DNA of 31,466 bases from a virus: IMG/VR virus record IMGVR_UViG_3300037963_000354, positions 1 to 31,466 of that record. One strand, written 5' to 3'. Below, one piece after another: positions 546 to 30,442 of the stretch; position 1 is the first letter of the stretch; every line of letters begins with the position of its first letter. A model generated the notes under the pieces. The model made no database searches and was not told the origin of the DNA. It was given only the letters and a program-made list of their open reading frames with translations. Position numbers and translations under genes: made by a program.

Positions 546-803
546 TTAAAAAGGCATATCACTAGCCTTGTCTTCTACTGTCTTTGCTGGTGTAAAATCA
601 TTCCATGCTACATACAAATCTTGTCCAGCTTTTAGTTTGTTCTTTAATTTTCCTACTGTAAGATTTAAAAATTTTCTATCACCTACCTTCTGAATACAAT
701 TTGGATTCTCTGCAAGTTTATTCAAATCTATTTGTATGTTAGAAAAATCACCATACTTCCCACTCTTAGTCCATCCACTACCTAAATATAATTTATTACT
801 CAT
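546..803 (-). CDS. small protein with an SSB-like acidic C-terminal tip, 85 aa
   Basis: The product is short, with alternating polar and hydrophobic segments consistent with a small beta-rich (possibly OB-like) fold. It ends in an acidic linker and the tip SDMPF. Single-stranded-DNA-binding proteins end in the similar DDIPF, which recruits replication and repair partners. The body is much shorter than a normal SSB (about 110 residues for the OB fold alone), so assignment as an SSB is inference. It starts at the TAATG overlap with the stop of the upstream gene and is followed by a hairpin terminator. A RecE-like exonuclease lies in the same arm, fitting a recombination role. Confidence 0.55.
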   Translation of the reverse strand: MSNKLYLGSGWTKSGKYGDFSNIQIDLNKLAENPNCIQKVGDRKFLNLTVGKLKNKLKAGQDLYVAWNDFTPAKTVEDKASDMPF

Positions 804-994
804 TATTTTAAAAGTTTATTGTTATTGTTATACTTCTTACCAGTTGCACAATAGTATGCAATTTCACTTGCAGTATCTATTATAGTATCAATGGTAATAT
901 CTTCATTGCCTTGCCCAGCCTTAATCTTCCAAAAGTCTATAGATGCTTTTATGGAACTCTGTCTTATTATACTCTTTTGAACATCTTCCATCAT
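803..994 (-). CDS. hypothetical early protein, 63 aa
   Basis: No family recognised. The product begins with two Met residues (ATG at 994 and 991), both compatible with the ATGA overlap with the upstream regulator gene, and ends in an Asn/Lys-rich tail. It contains the helical stretch ITIDTIIDTASEIAYYCATG. Its tight overlaps (ATGA upstream, TAATG downstream) mean it is translated coupled to the HTH regulator and the SSB-like protein in one leftward transcript. Confidence 0.55.
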   Translation of the reverse strand: MMEDVQKSIIRQSSIKASIDFWKIKAGQGNEDITIDTIIDTASEIAYYCATGKKYNNNNKLLK

Positions 995-1182
995 AAATCT
1001 ATTCTAAGGTTTTTGATAAATCCAGCCCTTGCAAGTTTCTTTAATTCTGATATTTTAAAGCTATCAGGATTGTTAAACTTATTGTACATTGTCATCAATG
1101 TCACATCAATCTTGTTAGCTAATTTTTGCTTGTCAAGTTTCATCTCCTTGAGACGACCTTCCAGTATTTCTTTAGTCAACAT
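991..1182 (-). CDS. small helix-turn-helix regulator, Cro/XRE-like, 63 aa
   Basis: Residues about 9-45 fit a helix-turn-helix of the Cro/XRE kind: a first helix (LKEMKLD), a second helix (KQKLANKI), a turn, a recognition helix (TLMTMYNKF) and a trailing helix (ISELKKLARA). The whole protein is barely more than the DNA-binding domain, as for Cro. It is the first gene of the leftward arm and sits next to a control region with three copies of a palindromic 11-mer that are good candidates for its operators. A TAnnTTTG box ends only 4 bases before its ATG, so its mRNA may be leaderless. DNA binding is inferred from sequence pattern and context. Confidence 0.7.
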   Translation of the reverse strand: MLTKEILEGRLKEMKLDKQKLANKIDVTLMTMYNKFNNPDSFKISELKKLARAGFIKNLRIDL

Positions 1183-1186
1183 GAAA

Positions 1187-1194
1187 CAAATTTA
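1187..1194 (-). promoter_or_regulatory. leftward promoter -7 box TAAATTTG
   Basis: The plus strand reads CAAATTTA, giving TAAATTTG on the minus strand, matching TAnnTTTG. Only 4 bases separate it from the start codon at 1182, implying a leaderless or nearly leaderless transcript for the HTH regulator. Confidence 0.5.
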
Positions 1195-1258
1195 TAAAAT
1201 TATTTTTAATTATTATAATTTTTTTTTAAATTTATTTTTATAGTGTAATGATTAGCAC

Positions 1259-1328
1259 TTACAATGTAATTACTATTATTTTTTATATATAAAAAATAAT
1301 TATTACAATGTAAATAGTTACAATGTAA
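1259..1328. promoter_or_regulatory. three palindromic 11-bp operator- or iteron-like repeats
   Basis: TTACAATGTAA occurs exactly at 1259-1269, 1303-1313 and 1318-1328. Each is a palindrome of TTACA and TGTAA around one central base, as expected for a dimeric regulator. A half-site (TGTAAT) lies at 1244-1249. Start-to-start spacings are 44 and 15 bp. They lie in the only divergent intergenic region, between the HTH gene and the first rightward gene. They may be operators for the HTH protein or iterons of an origin. Confidence 0.65.
1275..1300. repeat. 26-bp perfect AT-only palindrome
   Basis: The segment is its own reverse complement over all 26 bases and contains only A and T. It begins ATTATTTTTT and centres on TATATA at 1287/1288. 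It lies between the first and second TTACAATGTAA repeats. Such a segment could melt easily or hold divergent promoters; no exact TAnnTTTG box was found for the rightward gene. Confidence 0.6.
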
Positions 1329-1348
1329 TTATATAAAATAATAAAAAA

Positions 1349-1648
1349 ATGGAATTAACAAAAGAGAAAATACAAAAATTTATTAATGAATTTGAAACTA
1401 ATCCAATTACTGTAAAGTGGATAGAATCAGTAGAGAATAGGGGGAAGTTTCAGAGGGAAATGGATAAAGAATTTTTTGATTTAGCTAAGGATACTATTAA
1501 TAGATTAATTAAATTAATAATTCTTATGAATACCCTAGATGATAGCACAAACAAAATTACTAATGCTATCAAAAATGAACAAGAAAAATATCTTGGTATA
1601 ATAGATGATTTAGAAAACACACTTATAAAAATAAAAAATGCCAATTAA
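1349..1648 (+). CDS. hypothetical helical protein, 99 aa, first gene of the rightward arm
   Basis: The product is almost entirely charged alpha-helix with heptad-like spacing over its second half (IIDDLENTLIKIKNAN at the end) and no membrane segment. I do not recognise a family. The ATG at 1349 follows an A-rich leader directly after the repeat region, and the gene overlaps the start of the helicase gene by 11 bases. First-gene position and coupling to a helicase suggest a replication accessory role such as a loader or origin factor, but this is inference from place only. Confidence 0.6.
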   Translation: MELTKEKIQKFINEFETNPITVKWIESVENRGKFQREMDKEFFDLAKDTINRLIKLIILMNTLDDSTNKITNAIKNEQEKYLGIIDDLENTLIKIKNAN

Positions 1649-2585
1649 AGTAAAAGATTTTGATGACATATTAAAAAAGGATTATAATAAGAATGCTTGT
1701 AAAGAAGTATTTGTATCTGATATAAAAGATAAATTATTTTCTTACTATGAAGAAGGATACCCTATGGGTGAGACATCTCACATAAAAGGATTAGATGAAA
1801 ATTTTAGATGGAGAAAGGGTTACTTATATTGCTTTAGTGGTTATCCACAAAGTGGGAAAAGTGAAATACTAAATTATCTAAGCATATTAAGGGCATATCA
1901 TTATGGTGATAAAATTATGATGTACTCACCTGAAACTAATACTGCTGAACTTGTGCTGAATCTATGCCAAGCATTTCTTGGTAAGAATGTAAATCCAAAT
2001 TATGCTGACAAATGTAGTGAAGATGAAATGAATAAAGCATTAGAGTTTATTGGAAGTCATTTTGCATTTTTAGAAAACAATGATGAAATGCCAACTATCA
2101 ATTCATTAGTTGACAAATTTGAAGAATATACTGAACAAGGTTATAATAATTTTATTATTGACCCACTCAACTGGGTAGTAGAATCTAATGCTGGTGATAG
2201 CAATATGTATCAATACTTGAAGTTAACATTAACTATATTAAAACAATTTGCAAAAAAGACTGATAGCATCATGACTTACGTTGAGCATCCTAAAACTCCA
2301 CAAGCTGTAAGAGGTGTAATACCACGCGCCACAGCATTTTCTTTGGCTGGTGGTACAATGCATTTTAATAAAGTAGATTGCATGGTAGTAATGCATAGAA
2401 TCAAAGATGATGAAGTAGAAGATAGAGTAAAGGGAAGTAATTTAGTTGAAGGATTACTTTTAAATATGGAGAAACATATTAAATTTGTAGAGTTTGAAAC
2501 TGTTAAAATGAAGTCTCAAAGATTAAATGGTACTTTAGGAAGCTGTTTCATACAATATGATTTAAAAACTGGTAGATATAAATAA
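1638..2585 (+). CDS. RecA-fold replicative helicase-like ATPase (DnaB/Twinkle type)
   Basis: The product (315 aa) has a Walker A motif GYPQSGKS at residues 68-75 and a Walker B strand NFIIDPLNW at 171-179 (Asp175). A later GVIPRATAFSLAGG segment and a basic C-terminus are like those of DnaB/T7 gp4/Twinkle helicase domains. There is no N-terminal primase or DnaB N-terminal domain, so it is a minimal helicase core. Such proteins form rings and unwind DNA at the fork; the phage would rely on host primase and polymerase, since neither is visible here. The gene overlaps its upstream neighbour by 11 bases and lies beside the candidate origin. Confidence 0.8.
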   Translation: MPIKVKDFDDILKKDYNKNACKEVFVSDIKDKLFSYYEEGYPMGETSHIKGLDENFRWRKGYLYCFSGYPQSGKSEILNYLSILRAYHYGDKIMMYSPETNTAELVLNLCQAFLGKNVNPNYADKCSEDEMNKALEFIGSHFAFLENNDEMPTINSLVDKFEEYTEQGYNNFIIDPLNWVVESNAGDSNMYQYLKLTLTILKQFAKKTDSIMTYVEHPKTPQAVRGVIPRATAFSLAGGTMHFNKVDCMVVMHRIKDDEVEDRVKGSNLVEGLLLNMEKHIKFVEFETVKMKSQRLNGTLGSCFIQYDLKTGRYK

Positions 2586-2591
2586 ATAATT

Positions 2592-2789
2592 ATGACACAA
2601 GAGCAGGCGTTACAGATAATCGTTCAGGTTTGCGAAAAGGGAAACAAGAATGGTTTGTTTACTTTATCTGAAAGTTCATTAGTTTTACAGGCTTTAGAGC
2701 AGTTCGGGGTTACACCACCTACTGTAGAAGAAGTAAAACAAGATGAAGAAGCAGAAGAAGTATCAGAGACAAAAGAAGTTAAAGAGTAA
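2592..2789 (+). CDS. small acidic-tailed protein, 65 aa, probably highly expressed
   Basis: The N-terminal 40 residues look like two helices (MTQEQALQIIVQVCEKG, then a SESSLVLQALEQFG helix), and the last 25 residues are a run of Glu, Lys and Val. I recall similar short proteins in phages of this kind, without known function. Its codons differ from its neighbours: GCG, CAG, GTT CGG-type choices are frequent in a genome that mostly uses A/T-ending codons, as in the capsid gene. A strong terminator follows 66 bases after the stop. Both points suggest a very abundant product. Confidence 0.65.
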   Translation: MTQEQALQIIVQVCEKGNKNGLFTLSESSLVLQALEQFGVTPPTVEEVKQDEEAEEVSETKEVKE

Positions 2790-2850
2790 CTACTATTATT
2801 CTGATAATGACAATGAAATACTAGGCAAGACAGATAACCCTTGCCGTACT

Positions 2851-3051
2851 ATGATAAACCTCTTTACTGTGTTTAGAAATAATCACAATAAAGAGGTTTT
2901 TTTTGATATTGATAATCCAAAAAAAATAATAATTGATAAACAAAAATCACTACTGTACATGGAAAAAGATAATAGTAAGCTATACAAATATCAGGGAATT
3001 GCTATTACAAGAAAAGATTTTATCATACTTTTGGGATGTGAGGAGAAATAA
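2851..3051 (+). CDS. possible small hypothetical protein, 66 aa
   Basis: From ATG at 2851 the frame gives a mixed-charge protein ending YQGIAITRKDFIILLGCEEK, which reads like a genuine small soluble protein. No family recognised. Its first 16 codons coincide with a strong terminator hairpin, which is odd; an internal ATG at 2959 would give a 30-residue product clear of the hairpin. It overlaps the next frame by 14 bases if that one starts at GTG 3038. An extension of the frame upstream to 2743 overlaps the 65-aa gene and is unlikely to be used. Confidence 0.4.
   Translation: MINLFTVFRNNHNKEVFFDIDNPKKIIIDKQKSLLYMEKDNSKLYKYQGIAITRKDFIILLGCEEK
2856..2904 (+). terminator. strong intrinsic terminator
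   Basis: AAACCTCTTTA at 2856-2866 pairs perfectly with TAAAGAGGTTT at 2889-2899 (11 bp, 22-nt loop), and the T run continues to 2904. It would end the transcript of the 65-aa gene. It overlaps the 5' end of a possible small gene starting at 2851. Confidence 0.75.
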
Positions 3052-3319
3052 AGAGCAATTATTTGACATATTCCATAGATACATAAGACATCAAAAAAAC
3101 AAAGCCAAAGCTGGTAAATATGATTATGGTGATGATGTAGAAACATATAAGATGATATTTGCTTTAGCTGAACTGTTCCCAGTAGATGAAAAATATTATA
3201 GAGATGAACCACAAGTAGAATTATATTTAAAAGAACTTTGGTATCTCTATTTTTTTTTTAAAGAAAGTATAGATGGACATCATGTAAAATATTCAAACAT
3301 AGTTGCTAAATATTGTTAA
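3038..3319 (+). CDS. hypothetical protein, about 93 aa
   Basis: The convincing part is after the stop of the previous gene: helices rich in aromatic and charged residues (LFDIFHRYIRHQKNKAKAG, KMIFALAELFPVDEKYY, LKELWYLYFFF). No known family is recognised. The only in-frame start that does not extend deep into the upstream gene is GTG at 3038; an ATG at 2933 would add 35 residues read out of frame from the upstream gene. The gene lies directly before the ParB-like gene and ends one base before its ATG, so it is part of that operon. Confidence 0.5.
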   Translation: MRRNKEQLFDIFHRYIRHQKNKAKAGKYDYGDDVETYKMIFALAELFPVDEKYYRDEPQVELYLKELWYLYFFFKESIDGHHVKYSNIVAKYC

Positions 3320-3320
3320 T

Positions 3321-4058
3321 ATGAGAAAGAAAGTAAACATAAAAGAGATTATACCAAATAATGAAAACCCTAGAACAATATCCAAAAAGAACTTTAATAA
3401 ATTAGTCAAGTCAATAAAAGACTTCCCACAGATGTTAGACAAAAGACCATTAGTAGTAGATGAAGATATGGTTGTTCTTGGTGGTAACATGAGGCTAAAA
3501 GCATTACAGAAAGCTGGTGTACAAGAAGTATTAATAGATGTAGCAGAAGGCTGGACTGAAGAACAAAAGAAAGAATTTATAGTAAAAGACAATGTAGGAT
3601 TTGGAGACTGGGATTGGGATATACTTGCTAATGAATGGGATATAGATAAATTAAATGAATGGGGATTAGAAGTTAATTTTACAGAAGATGATGTAGATGA
3701 AAAATATACAGCTAAAATTATAGCACCTACATATAAACCTAGCAACACAAAGCCTGATATTAAAGATGTTTTAGATACACAAAAAACAATGCAGTTCATA
3801 GAAGAAATAAAGAAATCAAAACTGACTAATGAACAAAAAGAATTTTTAGTTTATGCTAGTTATAGACACTTAGTATTTGATTATTCTAAGATTGCAGATT
3901 TATATGCACACTCTGACAAAGATATGCAAGAGATGATGGAGAAGTTAGCATTGATTATTATTGACTTCAATAAAGCTGTAGAGAATGGATATGTAGAGTT
4001 ATCAAAAAAGATTGCAGACATTTATAAAACAGAGGGAATATTAGAGCATGGAAAATAA
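3321..4058 (+). CDS. ParB-like nuclease-fold protein
   Basis: Residues about 5-90 form a ParB/Srx-like domain: IKEIIPNNENPRTISKKN, a helix, then PLVVDEDMVVLGGNMRLKAL, where GGNMR corresponds to the GxHR-type nucleotide-binding signature of the family. The C-terminal half (from about residue 155) is an all-helical region that I cannot name. ParB-domain proteins recur beside DNA-modification enzymes and terminases in phages, and here the gene is followed, with an 11-base overlap, by a glycosyltransferase of the TET-associated type. The ATG at 3321 is preferred over TTG at 3303, which would overlap the upstream gene. Role in marking or sensing modified DNA is inference. Confidence 0.75.
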   Translation: MRKKVNIKEIIPNNENPRTISKKNFNKLVKSIKDFPQMLDKRPLVVDEDMVVLGGNMRLKALQKAGVQEVLIDVAEGWTEEQKKEFIVKDNVGFGDWDWDILANEWDIDKLNEWGLEVNFTEDDVDEKYTAKIIAPTYKPSNTKPDIKDVLDTQKTMQFIEEIKKSKLTNEQKEFLVYASYRHLVFDYSKIADLYAHSDKDMQEMMEKLALIIIDFNKAVENGYVELSKKIADIYKTEGILEHGK

Positions 4059-4899
4059 AGACTTTACAATTTTTATATTATCATTTGGCAGACCACATAA
4101 TGTTAAAACATATAGAACATTAAATAGATTTGGATATACTGGTACTAAATATATTATCTGTTCTACAGATGATAAAAAGCTAAATGAATACAAACAAAAA
4201 TATAAAGATGAAGTTTTAGTATTTGATAAAGATAAAGTACAACAAGATATTGGTGATAACTTTACACATCAGAACACAGTATTATATGCAAGAAATATTG
4301 CTTTTGATTTAGCAAAAGAATTAGGGTACACTTACTTTCTTGTATTAGATGATGATTATACAGATTTCTCATACAGATTTGATGATAACTTTGAATATAA
4401 AACTGGTAGAGCCTATATCAAAAATCTAGATAAGATATTAGATGCACTACTAGATTATTATAAATCTATAGATGCAAAGTCAATAGCTATTTCACAAAAT
4501 GGTGACTGGATTGGTGGTATCCAAAATGGTCATGCAAGACAATTAAAGATGAGAAGAAAGGCAATGAATAGTTTTTTCTGTAGTACAGAAAGACCATTCA
4601 AATATTTTGGTAGAATGAATGATGATGTAAATACTTATGTTAAACTTGGTAGTGTTGGTGATTTATTTTTAACTATTATGAATGTATCATTAAAACAAAC
4701 AGATACACAATCTAACAAAGGTGGCTTGACAGAAATGTATTTGAATGCTGGTACATATACTAAATCATTTTATACAGTAATGTATTCACCTGATTGTGCT
4801 AAAATATCTGTATTGAATACTAATAATAGTAGGATACATCATAAAATCAACTGGAATAATGCAGTACCATGTTTAATATCAGATACTTATAAAAAATAA
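4048..4899 (+). CDS. TET-associated-type glycosyltransferase (TAGT-like)
   Basis: The product (283 aa) begins with a GT-A-like strand and loop (FTIFILSFGRPHNVKTYRTL) and has a DxD-type metal-binding triad DDD at residues 101-103 within YFLVLDDDYTDF. It ends with a conserved-looking SRIHHKINWNNAVPC segment. This combination is what I know from the glycosyltransferases encoded next to TET/JBP oxygenases in phages, where they glycosylate modified bases in the phage DNA. No oxygenase or base hydroxymethylase is visible in this window, so the acceptor is unknown; it could be a base made by the host or by an unrecognised enzyme. A protein or surface-glycan target is the alternative. Overlaps the ParB-like gene by 11 bases. 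Confidence 0.72.
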   Translation: MENKDFTIFILSFGRPHNVKTYRTLNRFGYTGTKYIICSTDDKKLNEYKQKYKDEVLVFDKDKVQQDIGDNFTHQNTVLYARNIAFDLAKELGYTYFLVLDDDYTDFSYRFDDNFEYKTGRAYIKNLDKILDALLDYYKSIDAKSIAISQNGDWIGGIQNGHARQLKMRRKAMNSFFCSTERPFKYFGRMNDDVNTYVKLGSVGDLFLTIMNVSLKQTDTQSNKGGLTEMYLNAGTYTKSFYTVMYSPDCAKISVLNTNNSRIHHKINWNNAVPCLISDTYKK

Positions 4900-4902
4900 T
4901 AA

Positions 4903-4910
4903 TACTTTTG
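4903..4910 (+). promoter_or_regulatory. -7 box TACTTTTG before the terminase genes
   Basis: Exact TAnnTTTG match ending 4 bases before the ATG at 4915, implying a leaderless or nearly leaderless transcript. No -33 TTG is clear. Confidence 0.5.
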
Positions 4911-4914
4911 TAAT

Positions 4915-5271
4915 ATGAAAAGCAACAAAATACAACATACTAAAAAAGCACTACTGCAAGGATTGGAAAAATCTTTAGGTGTTGTCACTACTGCTTGTAA
5001 AAAAGTAGGTATAGATAGAACTACATTCTATAGATATTACAAAGATGATAAAGAGTTTGCTAAACAAGTAGATGATTTAAGTAATGTTGCTAAGGACTTT
5101 GCTGAAAGTCAACTGTTCAAACAAATACAAGATGGTAATCCAACTGCAACTATATTCTACCTAAAGACAAAAGCTAAGGATAGAGGCTATGTGGAACGAC
5201 AAGAATTAAATGTCAATGGTTCTGTAGAAAGTAAATTAATTGAATGGAAACCAGCAGAAAAAAAGAAGTAG
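4915..5271 (+). CDS. terS: terminase small subunit (HTH DNA-packaging protein)
   Basis: The 118-residue product has an N-terminal helix-turn-helix (KALLQGLEKSLGVVTTACKK, then VGIDRTTFYRYYKDDKEF) followed by a helical region and the segment NPTATIFYLKTKAKDRGYVERQ, a pattern common in small terminase proteins of Bacteroidota and Firmicutes phages. It recognises phage DNA and regulates the large subunit. It overlaps the large terminase gene by 28 bases. Its size fits the family. A TAnnTTTG box directly precedes it, so packaging and head genes appear to begin here as a transcription unit. Confidence 0.75.
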   Translation: MKSNKIQHTKKALLQGLEKSLGVVTTACKKVGIDRTTFYRYYKDDKEFAKQVDDLSNVAKDFAESQLFKQIQDGNPTATIFYLKTKAKDRGYVERQELNVNGSVESKLIEWKPAEKKK

Positions 5272-6428
5272 TTGAATGTAATGTTCAATTTTATCAAACA
5301 ATCAATAGCAACAAAAGAATAATCATACATCAGGGTTCATCTAGGTCAGGTAAGACGTATGCACTCTGCCAGTATATCATATACTTATTAACAACAAGAA
5401 AGGACAAACTTGTAATAACTATTGCTAGAAAAACACTTCCAGCATTAAAGGGTTCTGTTTATAGAGACTTTATAGAGATAGCACAAAAGGTAGGCATATA
5501 TTATATGGCAGAAATAAACAAAGCTGAACTTACTTTTAAGTATAAAAATCATTTAGTAGAATTTATATCATTAGATAATGAGATGAAGGTTAGGGGGCGA
5601 AAGAGAAATATATGTTGGCTCAACGAAGCAAATGAGTTCCATCTATCTGACTTTGAACAATTAGCATTAAGAACAAGTGAAAGAATACTGTGTGACTTTA
5701 ACCCATCTGATGTTATACATTGGTTATATGATATTAGCAATAGGTCTGATGCAAAATTGTTTATTACAACTTTTGAAGATAATGCCTTCTTAGATGTAGA
5801 AATAAAAAAAGAAATATTAAGAATGAAAGAAACAGATGCTGATAGATGGAGGGTATTTGGATTAGGTCTAAGGGCAAACTTTAAAACTGGTGCTATTTAT
5901 GACAACTGGAATTGGATTGATTATAAAGACTTTTTAGATAAAGAACATTGTGAGGTTGCTTATGGAATGGACTTTGGTTTTAGCAACGACCCAACGACAC
6001 TTATAGAAATAAGAAGAAAGAATGATAGATTGTATGTGCATGAATTGTTATATAAGAAAGGACTAACAAACCAAGACATATATAATGAAGTAAAAGAATT
6101 AGGTATAAATGAAGAAATAATAATTTGCGATTCTGCTGAACCTAAATCTATTGAGGAATTAAAAAGGTTTGGTTTGTATGTCAAGCCCTCACAAAAAGGA
6201 AAAGATAGTGTACTAAATGGAATATCTACAATAAAAGAATATACTGTATATGCATCTAAAGAAAGCAAAAATCTTTTTACCGAGTATCAATATTATGTAT
6301 GGGAATCTAACAGGGATGGTGATAGAATAAATAAGATAAAGCAAAATGGTCAAGACCATCTAATGGATGCACTTAGATATGGTACAACAACTGGTCTTGC
6401 TAGACAAAGAGATTTTATCATAGTTTAA
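5244..6428 (+). CDS. terL: terminase large subunit
   Basis: The 394-residue product carries the packaging ATPase and nuclease domains. Walker A is GSSRSGKT at residues 31-38, and Walker B with the catalytic Glu is ICWLNEAN at 123-130 (Glu128). The RNase H-like nuclease has Asp243 in GMDFGFSNDP, Asp296 in IIICDSAEP, and Asp371/Asp375 in GQDHLMDALRYG. This order and length match the PBSX/terminase_3 group. The enzyme pumps and cuts DNA at the portal. ATG 5244 is the only reasonable start and overlaps the small subunit gene by 28 bases. Confidence 0.93.
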   Translation: METSRKKEVVECNVQFYQTINSNKRIIIHQGSSRSGKTYALCQYIIYLLTTRKDKLVITIARKTLPALKGSVYRDFIEIAQKVGIYYMAEINKAELTFKYKNHLVEFISLDNEMKVRGRKRNICWLNEANEFHLSDFEQLALRTSERILCDFNPSDVIHWLYDISNRSDAKLFITTFEDNAFLDVEIKKEILRMKETDADRWRVFGLGLRANFKTGAIYDNWNWIDYKDFLDKEHCEVAYGMDFGFSNDPTTLIEIRRKNDRLYVHELLYKKGLTNQDIYNEVKELGINEEIIICDSAEPKSIEELKRFGLYVKPSQKGKDSVLNGISTIKEYTVYASKESKNLFTEYQYYVWESNRDGDRINKIKQNGQDHLMDALRYGTTTGLARQRDFIIV

Positions 6429-15065: not shown

Positions 15066-15368
15066 ATGGATGATATAACAAACAAAAAAGTTGCTTTGGA
15101 CGTTGACGGAGATGGCAAAAGCGATATCAAAATAGATATAAAATTTTTAGGATTATTGGTAGGTGGTATTATATCATTAACTATGACATATTCACAATTA
15201 ACTGCTGAAATAGAAGTGGCTAAGACATTGCCTGAATATAAGATAGAACAAGATGATACTAAAGTAATAAATCAAAAAATAGATTACTTAATCAAAGAAC
15301 TAGAAAAATACGAAGAACAAACTAACAGAAGATTAAATAGTTTAGAAGATAAAGTTTATAAAAAATGA
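15066..15368 (+). CDS. single-TM protein with coiled coil, lysis region, 100 aa
   Basis: The N-terminus has an Asp-rich DVDGDGKSD segment that resembles a calcium-binding loop. A transmembrane helix follows (FLGLLVGGIISLTMTY, about 29-44), then a long charged coiled-coil tail (DYLIKELEKYEEQTNRRLNS). One-TM proteins with a coiled coil next to a holin are often antiholin-, hemolysin XhlA- or spanin-like. ATG at 15066 is chosen; TTG at 15042 would overlap the upstream gene. It overlaps the next gene by 4 bases. Confidence 0.65.
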   Translation: MDDITNKKVALDVDGDGKSDIKIDIKFLGLLVGGIISLTMTYSQLTAEIEVAKTLPEYKIEQDDTKVINQKIDYLIKELEKYEEQTNRRLNSLEDKVYKK

Positions 15369-15685
15369 TTGCTAAAATCTTCTTTGTAATTTTAGCATTA
15401 AATAATATTACATTTAAAGTGGATGGTCTTACTTGTAGTATGTGTTCATTAAATGTTCAGAAACAATTAGAAAAAGTTTACTTTATAGAAAGTGTTGAAG
15501 CTGACATTGAAGAAGTCACTTACAAAGTACAATTAAAAAAAAATCATTATATTGATTTTTATGCTATAGCAAATGCTGTAACAGATGCTGGATTTAGCAT
15601 AAATAAAGAATCATTAAATGTAGGTACTAAAAATACAAATGATTTTTGGAAGAATAGTAACTATATAATTTGGAAGAACGAATGA
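15365..15685 (+). CDS. exported heavy-metal-associated (HMA) domain protein
   Basis: The 106-residue product begins with a short hydrophobic signal-like segment (MIAKIFFVILALNN). It then has an HMA domain: FKVDGLTCSMCSLNVQKQLE with the metal-binding Cys24-x-x-Cys27, a helix, VEADIEEV, and a closing helix ending DAGFSINKESL. HMA domains bind Cu(I), Hg(II) or Zn(II) and pass them between proteins. This domain would sit in the periplasm. It lies between membrane-protein genes of the lysis cassette, overlapping its neighbours by 4 bases, so it may be a host-derived cargo gene or have a lysis-related or metal-scavenging role. Confidence 0.75.
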   Translation: MIAKIFFVILALNNITFKVDGLTCSMCSLNVQKQLEKVYFIESVEADIEEVTYKVQLKKNHYIDFYAIANAVTDAGFSINKESLNVGTKNTNDFWKNSNYIIWKNE

Positions 15686-30074: not shown

Positions 30075-30138
30075 AGAATAAAGATAACACACCTACTAAG
30101 ATAATTGCAACAATTTTAATTATTCTTTTTTTTACCAT
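30010..30138 (-). CDS. possible 42-aa membrane peptide overlapping the resolvase start
   Basis: The frame from ATG at 30138 encodes MVKKRIIKIVAIILVGVLSL and a basic tail (RNEITKKGSRLRKSN). One clear transmembrane helix is flanked by Lys and Arg. It overlaps the end of the upstream gene by 23 bases and the start of the resolvase by 65. It bridges the only gap in this tightly overlapping gene series. The overlaps limit certainty. Confidence 0.35.
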   Translation of the reverse strand: MVKKRIIKIVAIILVGVLSLFYVRNEITKKGSRLRKSNTERI

Positions 30139-30442
30139 CTCTTTCTACAAACAATGCATAACCCAAATAACAATAATTGATTATGTCTGAAAACCTTGAA
30201 TGAATAGGCTCTGACTTTTTAAGATTAGCATTCTTTAAATGTGCATATACAGATTGCACTTGCTTTTCAAAAAATGTAGCCCACACTTTTAGTGAAGATG
30301 TGTTTAATCTATCTGCTGTAGATTTAAAATTATTTAATACATCTTCATCTTCATTTGTGTATTCAGGTCTTTTGTTTGCCATTATATCAAATGAATATTC
30401 ATTTAATTGTTTTACTAATTTGTCAAATTCTTTTTGTGTCAT
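30116..30442 (-). CDS. protein resembling nucleotide-modification-associated domain 1, 108 aa
   Basis: The product is all-helical, with KRPEYTNEDEDVLNNFKSTA, LKVWATFFEKQVQSVYAHLK and SEPIHSRFSDIINYCYLGYA. The pattern R-x-x-Y...DVL-NF+...K+...EPI--R--D-INY matches small phage proteins that I recall being annotated as nucleotide modification associated domain 1 (DUF1599 group), which resembles helical NTP-pyrophosphatases with acidic residues at the metal site. If right, it would act on nucleotides linked to modified DNA, fitting the glycosyltransferase of the other arm. It overlaps the upstream gene by 4 bases. The family call comes from memory of the pattern. Confidence 0.55.
   Translation of the reverse strand: MTQKEFDKLVKQLNEYSFDIMANKRPEYTNEDEDVLNNFKSTADRLNTSSLKVWATFFEKQVQSVYAHLKNANLKKSEPIHSRFSDIINYCYLGYALFVERDGKKKNN

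Follow-up and report, generated by a model that had tools for sequence, protein, structure and literature searches.

A candidate phage DNA-glycosylation cassette that joins a TAGT-type glycosyltransferase to a near-obligate partner domain

Phage DNA glycosyltransferases act, to our knowledge, on a base hydroxyl or on a sugar that is already present. The phage DNA hypermodification systems that Iyer et al. reportedly described in 2013 combine TET/JBP enzymes with TET-associated-type glycosyltransferases (TAGTs), and like the locus described here they consist of phage genes near the terminase that include ParB-like proteins and a TAGT-family glycosyltransferase (GT). They differ from it in that no TET/JBP is found in the window, by which we mean the whole 31,466-nucleotide stretch of viral DNA analyzed (IMG/VR record IMGVR_UViG_3300037963_000354, linear, without completeness estimate and possibly incomplete), nor in 72 records of relatives. 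In phage T6, the β-glucosyl-HMC-α-glucosyltransferase is a TAGT that adds a second glucose to glucosyl-hmC in DNA (PMC13216743, PMC13390438). The T6 enzyme shares PF20691 and the GT-A fold with the window GT; T6, however, makes hmC and has a first GT, neither of which was found here (the profile searches covering hmC synthesis), and the partner domain described below, the CTD, belongs to the clade of the window GT. The T4 α-glucosyltransferase is also a DNA glycosyltransferase and binds the replication clamp gp45 (PMC13216743), but has a GT-B fold and acts on hmC. ParBc proteins occur in phage DNA-modification (CmoX) clusters (PMC12783734), and a 2026 paper, which regards solitary TAGTs (those without α- or β-GT) as potentially novel transferases, counts them in 288 of 753 phage genomes (PMC13216743). 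Neither a TAGT standing alone nor a ParB-type protein in a DNA-modification cluster of a phage is, then, new. Of the CTD, the alternation of ParB and clamp peptide and the exchange with methyltransferases set out below, no description was found in a literature consisting mostly of publications outside subscription journals and of main texts.

The locus runs on the + strand in the order ParB-like gene, TAGT GT, TerS and TerL. The ParB-like ORF occupies 3321-4058 (ATG at 3321, with an upstream TTG at 3303 as a possible start), and its 3′ end overlaps the start of the GT ORF (4048-4899) by 11 bases; the terminase small subunit TerS (4915-5271; phrog_309, E = 1.6e-13) and large subunit TerL (5244-6428; PF04466, E = 2e-22; PF17288, E = 2e-15) follow. 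Overlapping ParB-like and TAGT-type genes upstream of a terminase were what the initial annotation of this DNA had described, and both the layout and the identity of the GT were confirmed, the latter by matches to PF20691 (E = 8.2e-33, 114.5 bits, cutoff 27.5) and phrog_842 (E = 1.9e-71). Because it recurs in well over 100 loci, the ParB-like/TAGT arrangement is not due to chance. Ten of the remaining small and flanking ORFs were scanned and gave nuclease-type and chance matches only, and PADLOC returned no match for the GT or the CTD. A nucleotide-modification-associated domain 1 that had been read into a small protein in the other arm (30116-30442, − strand) was rejected, PF07659 matching 20 residues at E = 0.076 and 13.8 bits (cutoff 25); this protein matches phrog_6802 (function unknown, E = 2.2e-14) and falls outside the proposed system. 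Elsewhere in the window, a small protein at 15365-15685, among lysis-like genes, resembles by eye a heavy-metal-associated domain (GLTCSMC).

A structure-based search, proposed earlier for the GT and for the C-terminal part of the ParB protein, settled the fold of the GT and gave no single acceptor. The AlphaFold2 model of the GT (pLDDT 92, pTM 0.90) matched GT-A enzymes in Foldseek (E down to 1.2e-5), the acidic DxD region is intact with D101-D103 conserved, and the residues conserved in the GT family are likewise intact (R15, R82, D102, D103, Q150, D153, K171, M173, N174, D193, H264 and H265). The closest solved folds have mixed acceptors (sugar, protein, nucleoside and peptide; TM ≤0.54); among them are the protein glycosyltransferases COLGALT1 and GalNAc-T2 and, at TM ≤0.50, AvpGT, a nucleoside 3′-O-glucosyltransferase (PMC11959488). 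A sequence search for solved relatives of the GT found none. Judged from the model, the nearest solved folds do not point to DNA as the acceptor, and this is not decisive. The CTD was modeled as helical and had no PDB match at E < 1. The Q150, KxMN and HH positions of the CTD-linked GTs examined have no counterpart in the T6 TAGT; of these GTs, that of phage c5 is a partial exception, deviating at Q150, D153 and N174. Most of the residues common to CTD-linked GTs are missing from the T6 TAGT and from the second GTs of tandem loci, which fits a primary acceptor for the CTD-linked enzymes, with c5 again the partial exception. Such tandem TAGT genes, the second without the CTD-linked motif, were seen in loci L033, L036, L027, L017, L172 and L131, and their sequences suggest a disaccharide. 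Deep branches of the GT tree (FastTree) are weakly supported, and no claim is built on them.

The N-terminal domain of the ParB-like protein (aa 1-115; 3321-3665, + strand), our proposed DNA tether, is of the ParB/Srx type. The protein matches phrog_620 (E = 2.8e-33) and phrog_498, a DNA methyltransferase family (E = 4e-25), and PADLOC assigns the ParB part to a type II methyltransferase model. As a single sequence it reaches 17.1 bits against Pfam ParB_N, below the cutoff of 26.3; the family profile matches solved ParB/Noc structures with E down to 9e-11, which identifies a ParB/Srx N-terminal domain. No ParA match was seen among the window ORFs covered by a general, not ParA-directed, scan.

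The near-constant neighbor of the GT is the region behind this domain (CTD; ~110 aa, about aa 129-235; 3705-4025, + strand), which almost always adjoins the GT in relatives and for which we propose the role of a GT-binding adaptor. It lies immediately upstream of the GT in 173 of 179 GT loci sampled; of the six exceptions, five lie at contig edges and one, in Nocardia phage NTR1, has a GT start that was called wrongly. Scanning independently with the CTD as seed yielded 82 CTD ORFs, 75 adjoining a GT, one at a contig edge and six without an adjacent GT. When five of these six were mapped, each proved to have a GT no more than a few genes away; the unmapped one, L269, has the same CTD score as L268. 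More than 40 loci have a CTD without a ParB match, some of these ORFs being cut by a contig edge. Where all three parts are present, distances correlate at r = 0.45 between CTD and GT versus 0.22 between ParB and GT (95% of bootstrap differences 0.09-0.34), and the ParB-GT value drops to 0.04 with the CTD held constant. No natural CTD-GT fusion was found. On this comparative sequence evidence, the real partner of the GT is the CTD, in a near-obligate pairing, rather than ParB. The partnership of ParB and TAGT from which the initial annotation had started therefore holds insofar as the two genes recur side by side, but its key member is the CTD behind ParB and not the ParB domain itself, which is absent in dozens of loci and is ruled out as an essential GT partner.

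Q..[LIM]F is a bacterial sliding-clamp-binding pattern, and CTDs without ParB often start with MKQxNLFG-like peptides. In a first sample, the pattern occurs in 24 of 35 ParB-less CTDs versus 9 of 1704 background ORFs, and a slightly different pattern, counted over the whole protein, in 1 of 131 ParB+CTD proteins. For the second sample the counts are 36 of 79 versus 5 of 618 background ORFs, and 17 of 39 for non-redundant proteins. The motif is short, and the sequences are related by descent, so that a p-value for the second sample overstates their independence. Among 113 CTD-alone loci, a clamp gene lies within 5 kb in 33 and PolA in 37 (families checked by PF00712, E = 1.5e-7, and PF00476, E = 4.6e-92). 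The 134 ParB+CTD loci have neither within 5 kb and lie near TerL in 82 cases; as the clamp queries were taken from CTD-alone loci, distant clamps elsewhere could be missed. In these sequences, ParB and the putative clamp-binding peptide appear to substitute for each other in front of the CTD. A clamp-bound DNA glycosyltransferase has a precedent in the T4 α-GT, which copurifies with gp45 and is known to bind it (PMC13216743), with the difference that here the clamp peptide sits on a separate putative adaptor, the CTD of relatives, the window itself having ParB. In one further locus, the PolA upstream of the CTD (L267:498-2798) begins with a clamp-binding-like peptide of its own, MPQIDLFGDI.

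Relatives of the window phage, collected via TerL, hold in the slot before TerS ParB-CTD plus GT, a ParB-methyltransferase fusion, ParB plus an ABC-GNAT protein, ParB alone, or nothing. The methyltransferases are ParB-N6/N4 DNA methyltransferase fusions (PF01555, E = 5e-30). As in the ParB-fused methyltransferases of phrog_498, the same ParB-like domain precedes the catalytic module, with 93-97 of 115 residues identical in four close relatives and 85 of 115 in a fifth (74-84%); the window differs from these and from the CmoX clusters in that its module is CTD+GT, and theirs a methyltransferase or carboxymethyltransferase. When window 2400-5400 was compared by blastn with L188, identity was 81% as far as 3681 and 85% from 4890 onward, and the stretch between gave no match; the breakpoints lie at 3681/4906 in L185 and at 3737/4885 in L203. 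These positions define an exchanged cassette (3682-4890, + strand) that comprises the CTD and the whole GT, and because of them we regard CTD+GT as a unit replacing the catalytic domain of a DNA methyltransferase behind a common ParB. The ABC-GNAT protein also replaces CTD+GT in close relatives; it is an ABC-ATPase fused to a GNAT acetyltransferase, beside the ParB gene in the same slot (L190:487-1557, L203:2549-3619), and is likely another DNA-modification module. In L183, whose TerL is 92% identical to that of the window, the slot contains a TET/JBP (PF12851, E = 3.6e-29), a glutamine amidotransferase, a GNAT, an amino acid:DNA transferase (ADDT) and a P-loop kinase, in a cluster (757-3982) with a ParB-type gene at its head. 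Searching with this TET gave similar clusters in L228, L229, L232, L234, L235, L238 and L240, with other genes in L228 where GATase, GNAT and ADDT stand; in several records the contig reaches the terminase genes, and there the cluster precedes them. None of the 10 records in which this lineage's TET cluster was found has a TAGT. Within the E. coli lineage the slot simply has or lacks the cassette, and no methyltransferase exchange was recognized there (other upstream genes not being profiled). For cryoconite phages, earlier work describes variable islands with many DNA methyltransferases as well as a variable stretch near the terminase that includes ParB (PMC7468147).

The swap with a methyltransferase or ABC-GNAT protein, and the TET cluster in the same slot, point to DNA as the substrate of the GT. 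Were the acceptor a protein instead, be it one of the virion, the terminase or the CTD/ParB protein, the tether would merely localize the enzyme; the ParB forms do adjoin the terminase, and the solved GT-A neighbors include the two protein glycosyltransferases named above. We consider this improbable because a DNA methyltransferase domain takes the place of CTD+GT exactly, and because another relative has the TET/ADDT cluster in the slot; the clamp/PolA form is ill-suited to a late modification of virion proteins. Phage GTs often modify host surface polysaccharide, and with many relatives lying in prophages of bacterial genomes the GT could alter a host glycan and so exclude other phages. Such seroconversion would have no use for DNA tethers or for an exchange with methyltransferases, however, and the arrangement also occurs in phages annotated without integrase (c5, the Vibrio pv27 region, Nocardia NTR1), so that we give this explanation very little credence. 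Protein or glycan acceptors are less likely than DNA.

If DNA is the acceptor, the question is how it is made ready for the sugar. The initial annotation saw no TET/JBP, hydroxymethylase or methyltransferase, and among the window ORFs scanned no TET, hydroxymethylase or cytosine methyltransferase appeared. Absence from a record of unestimated completeness is weak evidence, and it is the comparative data that carry the point. The Tet_JBP profile found nothing in 56 and 18 records of relatives, that is, in 0 of 72 distinct records (two being shared, several being E. coli near-duplicates and many being fragments), and detected 8 of 8 TET-holding records as positive control. C5-methyltransferases were found in 0 of the 56, and thymidylate-synthase-type enzymes, whose superfamily includes dCMP hydroxymethylase, in one of the 56 and none of the 18 (1 of 72 distinct), which speaks against hmC synthesis. 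The absence of TET is real, but a loss peculiar to the window phage is ruled out, and in the sequences sampled members of this TAGT clade as a rule go without TET. The window was also compared with c5, jlb1, NTR1, HHTV-2 and a Porphyromonas phage, four of these five being recorded as complete. The GT is the sole family linked by sequence in all six distant phages, the ParB/CTD gene being linked in four by phmmer and in six by alignment; no other gene family, and no candidate enzyme, is common to them. The annotations of the complete small relatives c5 and jlb1 contain no candidate base-activating enzyme.

Some CTD-GT loci do add radical SAM enzymes, P-loop kinases or a second GT. Radical SAM enzymes in the cassette (L009:8862-9824; L033, L036, L089, L131, L267, L281) possibly edit the sugar or the base. 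P-loop kinase-like domains occur fused to the GT, fused to ParB-CTD or between CTD and GTs (L032:6498-7901; L136:13086-14381; L266:4435-4995), and L284:2646-6388 encodes a CTD, a CofD-like protein, a MobA-like NTP transferase and a GT in one run, a possible source of a phage-made nucleotide-sugar donor.

Two chemistries can be weighed against these data, both with DNA as the acceptor. In the first, an unrecognized phage or host enzyme activates the base, and the GT completes a two-step hypermodification; this is a sub-case of DNA glycosylation, with the same place of action and different chemistry. The phage DNA glycosyltransferases known so far require a hydroxyl as their handle (PMC13216743, PMC13390438), and the radical SAM, kinase and CofD/NTP-transferase genes of some loci could belong to such a hidden step. 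Set against this are the profile counts given above, the six phages that share no enzyme besides the GT and its partner, and the host enzyme that would be required in Lactobacillus, Nocardia and Haloarcula alike; we hold it to be plausible, if short of probable. In the second, CTD+TAGT would glycosylate an ordinary DNA base directly, for example at an exocyclic amine, with no hydroxylated or methylated intermediate. This we put forward tentatively, as the more doubtful of the two; were it correct, one-step DNA glycosylation, an equally tentative proposition, would occur across phages of haloarchaea and of many bacterial phyla. With no enzyme found that is known to prepare DNA for a sugar, the chemistry may be new.

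Whichever chemistry applies, the pair is probably a self-contained phage DNA-glycosylation cassette acting by a tether-adaptor-transferase mechanism. These gradings are judgments and not calculated, and that for action on DNA contains those for the ordinary and the activated base. DNA modification, which the initial annotation had suggested as the function, is well backed, on independent evidence, by the methyltransferase-domain exchange, the TET cluster in the slot and two alternative DNA tethers, and receives no support from NMAD1. In the mechanism we propose, the CTD would bind and position the TAGT-type GT-A enzyme, and the part preceding it would bring the complex to DNA, by the ParB-like domain in the window or by the N-terminal clamp-binding peptide in other phages. 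The GT would then take a sugar from a nucleotide-sugar of the host and attach it to phage DNA, the clamp form during replication and the ParB form, beside the terminase, before packaging, and the product may protect against restriction or other DNA-sensing defenses. We infer from sequence comparison and gene context that DNA is the acceptor and that the CTD contacts the GT, and likewise the source of the sugar and its protective effect.

If this proposal is true, phage DNA glycosylation would be far more widespread than T-even phages and TET systems suggest, and it would have a modular design of tether, adaptor and transferase that is exchangeable for a methyltransferase. Solitary TAGTs would thereby gain a proposed function, and the question whether a hydroxylated base is required before a sugar can be placed on phage DNA would become testable.
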